A stretch of 64,000 bases of DNA from Phenylobacterium hankyongense. GTDB lineage: Bacteria > Pseudomonadota > Alphaproteobacteria > Caulobacterales > Caulobacteraceae. Location of the stretch: the NCBI RefSeq assembly GCF_003254505.1, contig NZ_QFYP01000001.1, positions 2,836,001 to 2,900,000 on the forward strand, given 5' to 3'. The notes under the pieces are model-generated. The model saw only the letters and a list, made by a program, of their open reading frames with translations, searched no databases and had not been told where the DNA came from. Of the stretch, positions 943 through 31,112 are shown in pieces. Positions within the stretch are counted from its first letter, which is position 1. Each line of letters starts with the position of its first letter. A program made the translations under genes and the position numbers.

Positions 943-999
943 CGATGTTCCCTAATGTTTTGGTGAGCGGGACAGATATCCCACGTAGCGATAACCTAC

Positions 1000-1018
1000 C
1001 GTCCCGTAGACAGGGACG
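1000..1018. promoter_or_regulatory. Candidate IclR-type operator upstream of the TonB receptor
   Basis: A perfect inverted repeat CGTCCC-N7-GGGACG lies 58 bases before the receptor ATG. A weaker second copy (GTGCC-N7-GGGAC) follows at 1032-1048. The same architecture recurs at 4247-4265 and, with one base swapped in each arm, at 5391-5407. That the IclR protein encoded at 4288 binds here is inference. Confidence 0.55.
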
Positions 1019-1118
1019 CAATGTGCCAAATGTGCCGTTTGATGGGACGAATTGCGCGAGAACTGGGCAGGTCTGCCGCTCGGCTGTGCGGGAAGCGTGC
1101 GCCTTTGCGCTCCCGGGA

Positions 1119-2315
1119 TCAGAACCTGGTGTGGGCCAGCTCGACGATCCGCAGCGCGTCGTCGACGATCGGAACGACGCGCCATTTGTCGAAGGCGGTG
1201 CAGGGGTGGGAGACGCCGAAGATCACCACGTCGCCGACCTGCAGGTCGTGAGAGCATGACAGGAAGCCATGCTGATCGTTCAGCCGCACAAGCTCGACGC
1301 CGTCAGCGCTTCGACGGGGCCCGTCGCCCCCGGGGATGACCGCCAGGGCCGTCGGCAGCCCGGCGTCGTACGGGACGTCGCGCTTTCCGACATCGCAGAT
1401 GGCCAGGCCCGGCTCGGGGCAGGACAGGACGGTGCTGATGACCTCGATCGCCGGCCGAAACGCCGGATGCGGATCGCGGAACGGGGTCAGCGCGGCGTAG
1501 GCGCCATGGTCGTGGGTGACGTAGCAGCCGCTCCTCAGGACAACGCGTGTCGTCGCCCCCGGCAGGGGCCGCGTCAGCTCCTCGGCCACCAGGTCGAAAT
1601 ACACGCTGCCGCCGGCCGTCAGGATGACCTCGCCGTCCTGCCCGCAAAGGCCCAGGTCCACGAGCTCCGCAGCCAGGGACCAGATGCGGCGGAGGAAGCC
1701 GCGGACGTCCTCGTCGACGGCGGGATCCCGCGTCGAGCCCCCGAGGATGCCCTCGAAGCCGCCGACGCCGGCCAGCCGCAGATGCGGGGACGCGGCGATA
1801 CGACGCGCCACCTCCAGCCCCGCCTCCCGGGTCCTGACGCCGGCCCGGCCCTGCGACAGTCCGACCTCGAGCAGCACCGGCAGGACGCCCCCCGTAACGC
1901 CTCGCGCCAGGCGCTCGGCGCCTTCCAGGGAGTCGACGTAGCAGTAGACGGTCGGCCCGGCGTTGCTGAGCGTGGAGTTGAGCCAGGCGATCGCCGCCGG
2001 ATCGACCACCTCGTTGGCGATCAGGATGCGGGGACCGGCCTGGGCGCCGAGCGCGATGGCCTGCGAGACCGACGCCACCGTGACGCCCCAGGCGCCGGCC
2101 GCCAGCTGCCGTCGCACGATCTCGGGCGACATGGTCGTCTTGGCGTGCGGCGCCAGGTCGACGCCATGATCGCGGCAGTAGGCCGCCATCAGCTCGATGT
2201 TCCAGTCGAGGGCGGTTTCCCGCACCACCATCAGGGGCGTCGAAATCCGCGAGGACAGGGCGTACTCGCCCTGCAGGTCGCCCTGCGCGGTCGCCAGGCT
2301 CTTCGCTGCTTCCAT
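1119..2315 (-). CDS. D-serine dehydratase/D-threonine aldolase-like PLP enzyme
   Basis: Fold-type III PLP enzyme of the alanine-racemase-like family that includes eukaryotic-type D-serine dehydratase and D-threonine aldolase (398 aa). Lys59 in PHAKT is the expected Schiff-base lysine. The C-terminal HPCTAFDKW motif supplies His370 and Cys372, which coordinate zinc in D-serine dehydratases. It would eliminate or cleave a D-amino acid in the cytoplasm, for example to an oxo acid and ammonia. It lies 73 bases downstream of the N-acyl-D-amino-acid deacylase on the same strand with no evident promoter between, so the pair is probably an operon: the deacylase frees a D-amino acid and this enzyme breaks it down. 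Exact substrate and reaction (deaminase versus aldolase) cannot be read from sequence. Confidence 0.85.
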   Translation of the reverse strand: MEAAKSLATAQGDLQGEYALSSRISTPLMVVRETALDWNIELMAAYCRDHGVDLAPHAKTTMSPEIVRRQLAAGAWGVTVASVSQAIALGAQAGPRILIANEVVDPAAIAWLNSTLSNAGPTVYCYVDSLEGAERLARGVTGGVLPVLLEVGLSQGRAGVRTREAGLEVARRIAASPHLRLAGVGGFEGILGGSTRDPAVDEDVRGFLRRIWSLAAELVDLGLCGQDGEVILTAGGSVYFDLVAEELTRPLPGATTRVVLRSGCYVTHDHGAYAALTPFRDPHPAFRPAIEVISTVLSCPEPGLAICDVGKRDVPYDAGLPTALAVIPGGDGPRRSADGVELVRLNDQHGFLSCSHDLQVGDVVIFGVSHPCTAFDKWRVVPIVDDALRIVELAHTRF

Positions 2316-2388
2316 GGTCGTGCTCTGTGTTGGGATGCGAGTTCTGGTCCCGGCCGCGTCGACGAAACGGCCCGGACCGGTCGGGATT

Positions 2389-3987
2389 CTAGGCGGCGTA
2401 TCGAAGCAGGCGCCCCGATCGCGCGCCGGTCTCGGCGCCGGCTTCGAGCGCGACCGCGCCGTTGACGACCACCACCTCGACGCCCTCGGCCAGTTCGAAC
2501 GGATTGGTGAAGGTGGCGCGGTCGCTCACGCGGCTGGGATCGAGAATGGTGATGTCGGCGAAGCACCCCGGCGTCAGGCGGCCCCGATCGCGCAGCTTCA
2601 ACCGGTCGGCCGGGGCGGAGGTCATCTTCCGGATCGCCTCGGCGAGCGTCAGCGCGGCCTGGTCGCGCACGTAACGGCCGAGCACCCGCGGGAAGGAGCC
2701 GAAGCTGCGCGGGTGCACGCGGCTGCCGTCGTCCCTGGCCGGCAGGGCCAGCCCGTCCGAGCCGATGATGGCGAGGTCATCGCGCATGAAGCTGACGACG
2801 TCGGCCTCGTCCCGATAGTGGAGGACCACGTGCACTTCGTTGCCGAACTCCTCGACCAGCCGCAGCGCCAGCTCCTCGCCGGAAAGTGCGTGCCCGTCGG
2901 CCAGCTCGGCGATCGAGTGGCCGATCATCTCGTGGCATTGCGGCGGCGCGGCCGAGACGATGAACCGCTCCCACCGCCAGGGGCCCTCGACGGCCCACCA
3001 GCTCTGGCCCGCGTCGGCCAGGGCCTGGCGGCGGGTAGCCGGATCGCGAAGGCGCTCGCGCATGGCCTCCAGGCCGCCGGCCTGCACCCAGGACGGCAGG
3101 TACTGCGACAGCGACGAGGACGAGGCGTCATAGGGATAGACGTCGAACGCCACATCCACGCCGTCGGCGCGCAGCTTGTGGAACCGCTCGAGGACCTCGC
3201 CGCCCTTGCCCCAGTTGGACGGCTGATTGATCGCCAGGTGCGAGTACTGCAGGCGCACGCCGGAGGCCCGCGTGGTGGCCGCCGCCTCGTTGAAGGCCTC
3301 GAGCTCGGTCACGCCGCTGGCGCGGATATGCGTGGCGTACATGCGGTCGTAGGCGCTGGTCAGGTTCACCAGCTCCTGGACCTCTTCCTGGTCGGCGTAG
3401 CAGGAGGGCACGATCGACAGCCCGGTGGTGAAGCCGAACGCCCCCTGCTCGAAGGCCTCTGCGAGCAGCCGCGACATCCCCCCGCGGACATGGGCGGGGC
3501 AGGGGCCGGCCACGCCCCCCAGTCCCGCGGCGATCCGCAGGGCGCCGTGTCCCACCAGCGGCACGATGTTCAGCGCCGGCGCGGCCGCCTCGACCGCCCG
3601 GGCGTAGCCGTCGAGATCGGTCCAGTCGAAGCTGGTCTCGTGCAGCGAGACGACCTGCATCAGCTCCCGGTGCTGATCGCGATGCGCCTGGTTCAGGGGG
3701 AAGGCCGAGAGGCTGCAGTTGCCGATCACCTCCGTGGTGACGCCCTGGTGCAGCTTGCTCTGGCAACAGGGCTGGCAGACGGCCGACAGGTCCGAGTGCG
3801 TATGGATGTCGATGAACCCGGGGCTGATGAGCCGGTCGGTGGCGTCGATGGTCTTGGTCGCCGTGGCGTCTTCCGGAATGTCGCCGAGCGCGACGATGCG
3901 ATCGGCGACGACCCCGACGCCGCCGGCGCGCAGGTCTCCCGCGTCGTCGAAGTAGTGGCCGTTCCTGATGAGCAGATCGAAATGCAT
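2389..3987 (-). CDS. N-acyl-D-amino-acid deacylase (D-aminoacylase), amidohydrolase family
   Basis: Zinc amidohydrolase of 532 aa that hydrolyses N-acyl-D-amino acids, or a related D-configured amide, to a carboxylate and a D-amino acid. The N-terminal small beta domain leads into SPGFIDIHTHSD (metal ligands His62 and His64). VIGNCS provides Cys91, the bridging ligand of D-aminoacylases. His220 (ATHIR) and His250 (YSHL) fall exactly where Alcaligenes D-aminoacylase has its metal histidines, and GSDG supplies the catalytic Asp411. An unusual CQPCC cluster (71-75) sits just after the first metal motif. It is the first gene of the leftward pair with the PLP enzyme and is divergent from the IclR regulator. 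Family call is strong; preferred acyl group and side chain are unknown. Confidence 0.9.
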   Translation of the reverse strand: MHFDLLIRNGHYFDDAGDLRAGGVGVVADRIVALGDIPEDATATKTIDATDRLISPGFIDIHTHSDLSAVCQPCCQSKLHQGVTTEVIGNCSLSAFPLNQAHRDQHRELMQVVSLHETSFDWTDLDGYARAVEAAAPALNIVPLVGHGALRIAAGLGGVAGPCPAHVRGGMSRLLAEAFEQGAFGFTTGLSIVPSCYADQEEVQELVNLTSAYDRMYATHIRASGVTELEAFNEAAATTRASGVRLQYSHLAINQPSNWGKGGEVLERFHKLRADGVDVAFDVYPYDASSSSLSQYLPSWVQAGGLEAMRERLRDPATRRQALADAGQSWWAVEGPWRWERFIVSAAPPQCHEMIGHSIAELADGHALSGEELALRLVEEFGNEVHVVLHYRDEADVVSFMRDDLAIIGSDGLALPARDDGSRVHPRSFGSFPRVLGRYVRDQAALTLAEAIRKMTSAPADRLKLRDRGRLTPGCFADITILDPSRVSDRATFTNPFELAEGVEVVVVNGAVALEAGAETGARSGRLLRYAA

Positions 3988-4120
3988 GACGCTCTTTCCC
4001 GCTGGCGGACTGCGAGTTCGCGACGATCGGGGAGACGCACCCCGCGAGACCTGACGGGGACAGCTCGGCGCCGCAGGCCTACACTGGCATGGAACTTTCG
4101 GACCGTACAGTGGGACGAAG

Positions 4121-4137
4121 GTTCCTGCTCGCGGAAT
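4121..4137. promoter_or_regulatory. Candidate operator in front of the deacylase
   Basis: GTTCC-N7-GGAAT, one mismatch from GTYCC-N7-GGRAC, lies about 134 bases before the deacylase start in the 300-base divergent region. A further GGGAC half-site lies immediately next to it (4112-4116). Weaker than the other three copies, so presented as a candidate only. Confidence 0.35.
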
Positions 4138-4246
4138 GAGCGGGGCGGGCTATGAGATTGGGCGGTGCAGCCAGGGGCCGGGCATCGGCCCATCTACTTG
4201 CACGCGTGGATTGAACATGCGGTGCTCATGGGCCAAATAGACCGTA

Positions 4247-4265
4247 CGTCCCGATTGACGGGACG
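4247..4265. promoter_or_regulatory. Candidate IclR autoregulatory operator
   Basis: Perfect CGTCCC-N7-GGGACG palindrome ending 22 bases before the iclR-family ATG, a position that would overlap its promoter or ribosome-loading region and suits autorepression. Same spacing and arms as the copy before the TonB receptor at 1000-1018. The remaining divergent intergenic region (3988-4246) holds the presumed promoters of both directions; no clear -10/-35 pair was chosen. Confidence 0.55.
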
Positions 4266-4287
4266 CGCGCCTGCCCATGGATAGCTG

Positions 4288-5196
4288 ATGAACACCAAGA
4301 TCACAGCCGACGCCGCCAAGCGGGGTGACGAGCTCAAGGCGCGCGCCGTGCGGGCCTTGCCGAACGCCGCCGCGGCGGACACCTCCCGCAGCCCGCGCGG
4401 CCGGACGGAAAGCGATCCGGAGCGGTCCGGCGGCCGCTCCGTCGCCCGCACCTGCGCGATCCTGCGGCTGGTCGGGCAGGGCGAAGACGAAGGCGTCTCG
4501 CTGCTGGACGTGGCGGCGGCCACGGAGCTGCCGAAGAGCTCAGCCCACCGCTATCTCCAGGTCCTCGAAGCGGAAGGCTTCGTGGAGCGTGACGCGCGCT
4601 CCTCCCGCTACCGCCTGGGCATCGGCCTGATGGCGCTGCAGACCGGCTTCGTCGACCGGCTGATCCAGCGGACCCGCCCGTTCCTGGCCAAGGTTCGCGA
4701 CCGGTACGACGAGACGGTCAATCTGGGCATGCTGGTCGGGCATCAGATCGTCTATCTGGACATCCTGGAGAGCGCCCGGACCATGCGCCTGGCGGCGCGC
4801 CGGGGCGACACGGAGTCGATCCACGCCACCGCCCTTGGGAAGGCCATCGCCGCCCATCGCTCGGATCAGGAGGTGCTGGCCCTGCTGCGGCGCGGCGGCA
4901 TGCCGAGGCTGACCGGCCGCACGATCACCGAGCCGGAGGAGTTCCTGCGCGAGCTGGAACGGGTGCGAGCCAGCGGCTACGCCGTGGACGACCGCGAGAA
5001 CGAACCCGAGGGGCGCTGCGTGGCCGTGTTCGTGCCGGGCCTGAGCACGCCCACCGCCATCAGCCTGAGCGGGGTGGCGAGCCGCTTCCCCATGGAGAAG
5101 GCCCAGGAGGTCGCCGACAGCCTGCGCGTGGCCGCGATGGAAATCAGCGGCGAGAACATCGCGCCCATAAAGCCGCTGGCGCCCACCGAAGCCTGA
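4288..5196 (+). CDS. IclR-family transcriptional regulator
   Basis: DNA-binding regulator of 302 aa. An unusually long, charged, low-complexity N-terminal extension (about 48 residues) precedes the winged helix-turn-helix, with the recognition segment in ELPKSSAHRYLQVLE around residues 75-90. The IclR effector-binding domain follows, with LESARTMRLAARRG, IHATALGKAI, and GYAVDDRENEPEGRCVAVFV, all typical of the family. It is divergent from the deacylase-PLP enzyme pair and upstream of the aminotransferase on the same strand. Matching palindromes lie before the TonB receptor, itself and the aminotransferase, so it probably controls all of them in response to a pathway intermediate. A downstream ATG could shorten the N-terminus; the first ATG was kept because the frame has normal codon use throughout. 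Confidence 0.92.
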   Translation: MNTKITADAAKRGDELKARAVRALPNAAAADTSRSPRGRTESDPERSGGRSVARTCAILRLVGQGEDEGVSLLDVAAATELPKSSAHRYLQVLEAEGFVERDARSSRYRLGIGLMALQTGFVDRLIQRTRPFLAKVRDRYDETVNLGMLVGHQIVYLDILESARTMRLAARRGDTESIHATALGKAIAAHRSDQEVLALLRRGGMPRLTGRTITEPEEFLRELERVRASGYAVDDRENEPEGRCVAVFVPGLSTPTAISLSGVASRFPMEKAQEVADSLRVAAMEISGENIAPIKPLAPTEA

Positions 5197-5197
5197 G

Positions 5198-5218
5198 CCG
5201 GCCGGCCTCCACGGCCGG
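5198..5218 (+). terminator. Hairpin after the iclR-family gene
   Basis: Seven-base perfect inverted repeat CCGGCCG / CGGCCGG with a 7-base loop directly after the TGA. No T-run follows, so intrinsic termination is only possible. Confidence 0.35.
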
Positions 5219-5390
5219 TCCCGGGCGCGACGCCCAGAGCGATCGTTTCTGACAGCGCGCGGACGCGCGCGGCTGACGCCGTGCGCGCGCCTCGGCGCGT
5301 CCGCGGTTCCGCGGGAGCTCCAGGATTTCTGGATTCCATTCCATTTTGGAGTGGACTTTGCAGCATGCCGCCTGCATTTTTGGGACAACG

Positions 5391-5407
5391 GTTCCGCTAG
5401 TCGGAAC
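5391..5407. promoter_or_regulatory. Candidate operator upstream of the class III aminotransferase
   Basis: GTTCC-N7-GGAAC perfect palindrome, the same spacing as the GTCCC-N7-GGGAC copies elsewhere in this cluster. It lies inside the longest possible reading frame of the aminotransferase (ATG at 5346), which argues that the real start is downstream of it. Confidence 0.5.
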
Positions 5408-5492
5408 ATCGTGGTCATCCCCGTCCTTGCCGAGTGCGCCTTCAGCAGGCCGGTCCGGCGGCCGTGATCGCAGTGACGAGAGGAGCTCGACC

Positions 5493-6821
<1,329 letters not shown>

Positions 6822-29969: not shown

Positions 29970-31112
29970 ATGCCTTCACCTGAATTCCGCACCCTGACCG
30001 AAGCCGCGGCCTGGTACGACGCCTGGCTGCGCGAGGCGGCGCTGCCGCTTTGGGCCTCGGCGGGCGTCGATCCGCGGACCGGCGCATTCCAGGAAGCCCT
30101 GACCTTGCAGGGCGCGCCCCACGCGGCGCCGCGCCGGGCGCGGGTGCAGGCGCGCCAGACCTTTGTCTATGCGTCTGCGGCGACGGCGGGGTTCGGGCGC
30201 GAGTGGCTAGACCCGGCGCGGCGCGGCTTCGAGGCCTACCTGGCCAAGTACCGGCGGCCCGACGGCCTGTTCGCGGCGCTGGTCGACGCCGAAGGCCAGG
30301 TCGTGGACGCGACGGCGGGCCTCTACGAGCAGGACTTCTCGCTGTTGGCCATGGCGGCCCTGCACGTCGCCGACCCGCGCTACGGGAACATGGCGGCTGA
30401 GGCGGACCGCACGCGGCTGGCGCTCGGGGGCTTCCGCCATCCGGCGGGGGGCTTTCGCGAGGCCGGCGCTCATCCTTTCCAGTCCAACGCCCACATGCAC
30501 CTGCTGGAGACCGCGCTGGCCTGGGAAGGGGCGGGCGGGGAGGCGGCGTGGACGCAGCTCGCCGACGAGATCGTCGGGCTGGCGCTGGCGCATTTCATCG
30601 ACCCCCGCGGCCGGTTCCTGCGCGAGTTCTTCGACGGCGACTGGCGGCCCGCGCCGGGCGACGACGGCCGCTGGGTGGAGCCTGGGCACCAGTTCGAATG
30701 GGCCTGGCTGCTGGAGCGCTGGGGCGTGAAGCGCAACAACCCGGCCGCGCGCACCGCCGCGCGCGATCTCTTCGAGCGCGGCCGGCTGGGCGTGGACCGT
30801 CAGCGCGGGGTGGCGATCAACGTGCTTTGGGACGACCTGAGCCCTCGCGACGCCTCGGCGCGCCTCTGGCCGCAGACGGAGTATCTGAAGGCGGCCCTGA
30901 TCCTCGGCGAGGAGGCCGAGGCGATCACCGCCGCGCGCGGCCTGGCAGGCTACCTCGATGTTCCGACCCGGGGGACCTGGCGCGACAAGATGCTGCCCGA
31001 CGGCAGCTTCCTCGAGGAGCCTGCGCCCGCCAGCTCCTTCTACCACGTGATGGTGGCGCTCCTGGAGCTGCGCGACGCTGTCGGCATGGCGGTCCAATTG
31101 ACGCGGCCGTGA
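29970..31112 (+). CDS. AGE-family sugar epimerase/isomerase
   Basis: (Alpha/alpha)6-barrel sugar isomerase of 380 aa, of the N-acylglucosamine 2-epimerase / mannose-6-phosphate isomerase-like family. RVQARQTFVYASA, DATAGLYEQDFSLLAMAAL, PFQSNAHMHLLETAL and WVEPGHQFEWAWLLERW place the conserved His, Glu and Arg/Trp of the central cavity (notably the NAHMH.LE and EPGHQFEWAWLL motifs). It would interconvert aldose and ketose, or epimerise a sugar, feeding nucleotide-sugar precursors to the polysaccharide genes. Proteins like this are often annotated as ManA-type mannose-6-phosphate isomerase, which cannot be proven here. The ATG at 29970 is the first in frame. Confidence 0.88.
   Translation: MPSPEFRTLTEAAAWYDAWLREAALPLWASAGVDPRTGAFQEALTLQGAPHAAPRRARVQARQTFVYASAATAGFGREWLDPARRGFEAYLAKYRRPDGLFAALVDAEGQVVDATAGLYEQDFSLLAMAALHVADPRYGNMAAEADRTRLALGGFRHPAGGFREAGAHPFQSNAHMHLLETALAWEGAGGEAAWTQLADEIVGLALAHFIDPRGRFLREFFDGDWRPAPGDDGRWVEPGHQFEWAWLLERWGVKRNNPAARTAARDLFERGRLGVDRQRGVAINVLWDDLSPRDASARLWPQTEYLKAALILGEEAEAITAARGLAGYLDVPTRGTWRDKMLPDGSFLEEPAPASSFYHVMVALLELRDAVGMAVQLTRP

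Follow-up and report, generated by a model that had tools for sequence, protein, structure and literature searches.

Candidate operators of an IclR-family regulator at the promoters of a D-amino-acid gene cluster in Phenylobacterium hankyongense

Genes of the cluster and palindromes at their promoters

The window analyzed here, a stretch of 64,000 nucleotides (64 kb) from Phenylobacterium hankyongense, opens with three genes on the reverse strand. Positions 1-942 hold the 5' part of a gene encoding a TonB-dependent receptor of 777 aa, which runs beyond the window (ORF L080:12609-14942; Pfam Plug and TonB beta-barrel domains). The second gene (1119-2315; Pfam D-ser_dehydrat and Ala_racemase_N) encodes a PLP enzyme resembling D-serine deaminase and D-threonine aldolase, with the D-serine deaminase 3gwq as its best PDB match, and the third (2389-3987; Pfam Amidohydro_3) encodes an N-acyl-D-amino-acid deacylase-like amidohydrolase with PDB matches to 9g5m (an amidohydrolase), 3gip (N-acyl-D-glutamate deacylase), and 1m7j (D-aminoacylase). 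Divergently oriented on the forward strand is a gene for a regulator of 302 aa (4288-5196) with the recognition helix LPKSSAHRYL; its matches to HTH_IclR (PF09339, 53.8 bits against a cut-off of 22) and IclR_C (PF01614, 126.3 bits against a cut-off of 24) place it in the IclR family, and its PDB matches include the IclR transcriptional regulator 1mkm and TtgV (2xrn). A class III aminotransferase gene follows on the same strand (5493-6821, start codon uncertain), whose product matches HemL proteins and, lower down, D-phenylglycine aminotransferase; the next gene in the window lies on the opposite strand. Based on these domain and PDB matches, "D-amino-acid cluster" appears to be a fair name for this gene set.

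The initial annotation reported the palindrome GTYCC-N7-GGRAC as exact at 1001-1017, 4248-4264, and 5391-5407 and with one mismatch at 4121-4137, and all four sites were recovered as described; a second site at 1032-1048, an additional box at 5382-5386, and a degenerate palindrome at 4100-4116 had been overlooked. At the receptor promoter, the exact copy GTCCCGTAGACAGGGAC (1001-1017) has its center approximately 67 bp before the start of the receptor gene (942), and the one-mismatch copy at 1032-1048 is located 31 bp from it (i.e., about three helical turns), with its center at -98; this promoter also carries a weak two-box element, GGGAC-N4-ATCCC (969-982), with one mismatch to GGRAC-N4-GTYCC. 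On the deacylase side, the site at 4121-4137, centered at -142 from the deacylase start at 3987, is part of a forward three-box arrangement with one mismatch (GGGAC-N4-GTTCC-N7-GGAAT, 4112-4137), and 21 bp from this site lies the degenerate palindrome GGACCGTACAGTGGGAC (4100-4116), which has two mismatches and takes part in two-mismatch three-box places. The exact palindrome GTCCCGATTGACGGGAC (4248-4264) starts 40 bp before the iclR ATG at 4288 and is centered at -32 from it.

The aminotransferase promoter carries a three-box arrangement on the forward strand, GGGAC-N4-GTTCC-N7-GGAAC (5382-5407), which contains the exact palindrome 5391-5407, centered at about -94 from position 5493. Since an open aminotransferase frame extends back to a TTG at 5346, thereby taking in 5391-5407, and an ATG start is not evident, this palindrome is intergenic only if the gene starts near 5493; a start near 5493 is suggested by strong conservation with a related locus (L081, see below), which begins near that position. 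A TGGAC and GCATT pair, noted by eye, is located just before the aminotransferase boxes and is conserved in both loci; a consensus scan identified no sigma-70-like promoter, and a single weak terminator-like match at 5359-5376 is no more than shuffled sequences yield.

Clustering of the sites and conservation in a second genus

The exact palindrome was found at 16 places in the whole 3.84-Mb genome as compared to 13 for a reversed control pattern, which does not represent an enrichment, but three of the 16 are inside 4.4 kb of one cluster. Since the bare pattern shows no genome-wide enrichment, it cannot define a regulon by itself. At the genome's own density, the Poisson probability of three exact copies in this given 4407-bp stretch is approximately 1e-6, or approximately 9e-4 once all stretches of 4407 bp are allowed for. 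A search across the regions 943-1118, 3988-4287, and 5197-5500, free over spacers of 0 to 12 and one degenerate arm position, found a palindrome family common to all three gaps in only 2 of 36,045 dinucleotide shuffles and a family common to three regions in 124 of 46,926 random triples of real sequence (window positions 7000-64000). The placing of the three exact palindromes in the cluster is thus not due to chance.

Outside the cluster, a fourth exact copy in the window was found at 30960-30976, and 18 places in the window carry the palindrome with at most one mismatch (12.2 expected; 9 of 100 shuffles reach 18). The loci of 12 of the 13 other exact places in the genome (all but 3452082) were considered; 10 of the 12 lie under stop-to-stop frames of at least 150 aa, a weak test in GC-rich DNA, and the remaining two are located between TetR-like and HNH-like genes and in a phage-like region (all named by eye). 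With regard to the three-box pattern, 5382-5407 is the only place in the genome that matches with zero mismatches, and 4112-4137 is one of four one-mismatch places, the other three being found together near 3.451 Mb in a stretch that looks repetitive. The pattern with at most two mismatches is rarer (25 forward and 34 reverse places) than its reversed control (70 and 71); the three-box pattern is therefore not enriched as such, and its best matches simply fall in the cluster.

In a search of 390 genomes of the family, nine, including that of the window, encode a homolog of the IclR protein at an E value of 1e-30 or better, and only one homolog (genome G103) reaches 80% identity, with the rest at 31-33%; in a sample of 398 genomes of the phylum, 26 entries passed, the window's genome included, and identity among the matches listed was at most 38%, the protein's own match aside. 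The G103 locus (L081; contig JAQGII010000397.1), from a Caulobacteraceae metagenome-assembled genome, retains the order deacylase-iclR-aminotransferase with 76-83% DNA identity to the window, and the receptor and PLP enzyme genes are absent from the contig. A fumarylacetoacetate hydrolase-family gene (L081:4694-5557) follows the aminotransferase gene there. The L081 aminotransferase promoter carries GGGAC-ATCT-GTCCC-N7-GGGAC (L081:3256-3281), with the spacings found in the window; 13 of 15 box positions are identical between the two loci, as compared to 5 of 11 spacer positions and 21 of 40 and 13 of 40 flanking positions. The counterpart of the iclR site (L081:2084-2100) is a one-mismatch palindrome (GTCCC/GGGAT) that starts 41 bp before an in-frame ATG (40 bp in the window), with identities of 9 of 10 in the boxes, 3 of 7 in the spacer, and 19 of 40 and 8 of 23 in the flanks. 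Over both sites, 22 of 25 box bases are kept in L081. The iclR and aminotransferase promoters are thus footprinted in the second genus, and the deacylase promoter failed this comparison, as neither an exact nor a one-mismatch site was found on the deacylase side of L081.

This difference could mean that true operators are confined to the iclR and aminotransferase promoters and that the deacylase and receptor sites are chance or weak look-alikes, i.e., that the regulon is smaller than proposed. One-mismatch copies are common by chance, and only the two footprinted promoters have a conserved site in L081. On the other hand, the receptor promoter carries an exact copy (1001-1017) with a one-mismatch copy 31 bp off, and the deacylase arrangement 4112-4137 is among only four one-mismatch three-box places in 3.84 Mb, the other three of which share one repetitive-looking stretch. 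On balance, we regard this smaller regulon as rather unlikely and favor operators at all four promoters.

The protein predicted to read the sites

Only two proteins with an IclR_C domain are encoded in the genome of the window, one of which is the product of the cluster's own gene. We surveyed 253 loci, from which four without a helix were left out, yielding 249 IclR homologs, and scanned 360 bp upstream of each. Among the 16 homologs with a K-S-x-x-H-R recognition helix, eight are preceded by an exact palindrome, as compared to two of 233 others (Fisher 1.7e-9, a value that, as for the other Fisher values in this survey, overstates independence because the loci are related by descent); after removal of 57 loci whose helix and a 60-mer recur in another locus, the counts are 8 of 16 and 2 of 176. 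In the first homolog sets, all seven K-S-x-x-H-R homologs are preceded by an exact (five) or one-mismatch site, as are 6 of the 132 other homologs (none exact). Among 110 loci taken after the rule was formed (the best 100 among the matches listed from a class search, plus 10 others), exact sites were found for three of nine K-S-x-x-H-R homologs and 2 of 101 others (p 0.0036), and sites with at most one mismatch for 4 of 9 and 9 of 101, respectively. The reversed control pattern gave no exact upstream match in any helix class.

The association is found chiefly within one genus. Of the 16 K-S-x-x-H-R homologs, the window's genus contributes nine (seven with exact and two with one-mismatch sites) and G103 its ortholog (one mismatch); the remaining six belong to the same class but not to the Caulobacteraceae, and among these L226 alone has a site. 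Overall, the 360-bp scan revealed neither an exact nor a one-mismatch site for five of the 16. Helix and box are thus firmly linked within the window's genus and weakly beyond it, and the finding that only one of six such homologs outside the family has a site lowered our confidence in the main reading, which nevertheless remains high: the palindromes are probably operators of the cluster's own IclR-family protein (4288-5196). As a separate observation, the IclR genes of four loci in the window's genus (L025, L028, L029, and L298) have GTTCC-N7-GGAAC together with a second full, partial, or half copy about 20 bp further on; a neighbor in L025 was identified by eye as a MmgE/PrpD-like gene.

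More distant homologs were found next to related genes: among 79 actinobacterial loci that surround IclR homologs of 33-38% identity, 32 hold a relative of the deacylase or the PLP enzyme. Eight Planobispora/Planomonospora loci (L088, L092, L098, L102, L104, L110, L132, and L139) share TTGTG-N5-CACAA before a deacylase gene adjoining the IclR gene, and six of seven Arthrobacter loci looked at have GTTGC-N7-GCAAC before the PLP enzyme gene, accompanied by a third box at N4. At four Arthrobacter PLP-deacylase promoters (L091:13103-13119, L094:13096-13112, L101:11814-11830, and L130:12397-12413), GCAAC (GCAAT in L130) is located 4 bases upstream of the palindrome, so that the three-box geometry recurs with a different box sequence. 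We rejected these actinobacterial palindromes as an extension of the window's operator because their boxes differ.

It is improbable, in our assessment, that another protein reads the sites, whether the second IclR-family regulator, a DeoR-like protein (a candidate named by eye upstream of a Gfo/Idh gene in L080), or LexA. The second IclR-family protein likewise has a His-Arg helix (LNRSTVHRLA), but no GTYCC palindrome was found in the 300 bp upstream of its gene, and in the window's genus the site accompanies the K-S-x-x-H-R helix. LexA sites also include boxes with GTTC/GAAC; in Alphaproteobacteria, however, LexA boxes are direct repeats (GTTC-N7-GTTC) rather than the inverted repeats found here, and the cluster is metabolic, and LexA was set aside on these grounds. 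Still less credible is a reading of the inverted repeats as hairpins in leader RNA or as products of chance. Every inverted repeat is able to form a stem, the paired Y/R changes are equally compatible with one, and the L081 iclR copy (GTCCC/GGGAT) would retain a G-U pair. However, a single hairpin does not account for the third boxes, whose spacing is constant in the two species; other IclR genes are preceded by the same palindrome, and the shuffles disfavor chance. The initial proposal that the palindromes are operators of the cluster's IclR protein and link the cluster promoters is supported by the L081 footprint, the association between helix and operator, the presence of only two IclR_C proteins, and the actinobacterial gene neighborhoods; its weak point is the deacylase site, for which L081 has no counterpart with one mismatch or fewer.

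Relation to published IclR operators and the predicted regulon

Suvorova and Gelfand 2021 (PMC8222616) describe a group 1 IclR motif, GKTYCRYW3-4RYGRAMC, with a subgroup (ii), GTT-11-AAC (GTTYCRYW3RYGRAAC), that comprises 54 orthologous groups and 1364 sites; they also report tandem arrangements for 94 groups (18-22 bp between sites, with a less pronounced excess at three turns) and three-box sites for 32 groups, and most site centers lie at -20 to -80 relative to the start of the gene. As in the GTT-11-AAC sites of group 1 described there, the window's sites are odd palindromes of 17 bp with equal spacing, found upstream of gene starts and accompanied by tandems at about two or three turns and a three-box form; their G-T-Y-C-C arms depart from the published ones by a C at position 3 in some copies. 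The initial suggestion that the site is apparently new thus does not hold: the 17-bp geometry and the tandem and three-box forms have already been described in IclR regulators (PMC8222616), and further IclR genes in the window's genus are preceded by the same palindrome.

Site by site, 5391-5407 fits the published arms GTTYC/GRAAC (PMC8222616) and 4121-4137 has one end mismatch, while 1001-1017, 4248-4264, and both L081 sites have a C at position 3 (GTCCC/GGGAC) as opposed to the T of the subgroup consensus; the window's central positions follow the published RYW3RY only partly. The position-3 C was also found upstream of the homologs L226 (one arm) and L281 (both arms). The published residue/base correlations (Lys28 and, weakly, His32) fit the IclR protein and were considered as an explanation of the C variant, but do not account for it, since this position is T in the sites of homologs that share these residues. 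Tandem spacings of the published kind (PMC8222616) are present at two of the four promoters, i.e., 21 bp between 4100-4116 and 4121-4137 and 31 bp between 1001-1017 and 1032-1048, and the alternating third box is present at 5382-5407 (kept in L081) and, with one mismatch, at 4112-4137. The centers of 4248-4264 and 1001-1017 fall within -20 to -80, and those of 1032-1048, 4121-4137, and 5391-5407 are farther out.

Among individual regulators covered by the same source (PMC8222616), PcaU, PobR, and HmgR have three-box operators that, as here, combine a palindrome with one external half-site, but their box sequence differs and they act in catabolism of aromatic compounds. The GenR operator ATTCC-N7(5)-GGAAT (PMC8222616, Table 1) is nearly the window's box at the same N7 spacing, with A/T instead of G/C as the end base and a role in the Corynebacterium gentisate pathway. 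In NCBIfam, the window's IclR protein scores best against BhcR, known from Paracoccus denitrificans, with which it shares a divergent gene arrangement (PMC11323563), and the PLP enzyme scores best against BhcC; identification of the IclR protein as BhcR was rejected, given a score of 161.6 bits against the equivalog cut-off of 350. Our literature search revealed no study in which an IclR protein controls D-aminoacylase or N-acyl-D-amino genes; the regulon may thus be undescribed, and the type of site is known.

In the mechanism that we propose, a dimer of the IclR protein would read one 17-bp GTYCC-N7-GGRAC site, and where extra boxes occur at 21 or 31 bp, a second dimer would join on the same helix face, as in IclR-family tetramers. 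The protein would control its own gene, the divergent deacylase and PLP enzyme genes, the aminotransferase gene, and the TonB receptor gene, and a small ligand from the pathway, presumably a D-amino acid or an N-acyl derivative, would alter its binding. We infer that it would act mainly as a repressor: the location of the iclR site 24-40 bp before the ATG suggests repression, as does that of the aminotransferase boxes just downstream of a possible -35/-10 pair (identified by eye), since TGGAC and GCATT, if these are the -35 and -10 elements, would place the boxes at the transcription start. Because the consensus scan yielded no promoter, site position does not by itself distinguish repression from activation.

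Outside the window, beyond the receptor, lies a set of forward genes encoding a Gfo/Idh protein, an SDR, an M81 peptidase (MlrC), a RidA-like protein, and an MFS transporter. Directly before this set is a three-box arrangement with two mismatches (L080:7285-7310; G000:C1:2829285-2829310), which includes a one-mismatch palindrome (L080:7294-7310; G000:C1:2829294-2829310) about 20-36 bp before the first ATG, and this site may extend the regulon. More tentatively, and with less than even probability, one IclR protein could run an entire island for uptake and breakdown of N-acyl-D-amino acids, including this second operon, through promoter-specific operator layouts; if so, the different layouts (single, three-box, 21-bp tandem, and 31-bp pair) and the position-3 C box would give each promoter its own response.

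While these sites open no new class of regulation, they provide a concrete candidate operator and a candidate regulon for a D-amino-acid cluster, with a regulator whose close ortholog was found, among the genomes searched, in only one other genus of the Caulobacteraceae. In the window's genus, the K-S-x-x-H-R recognition helix accompanies the GTYCC-N7-GGRAC box.
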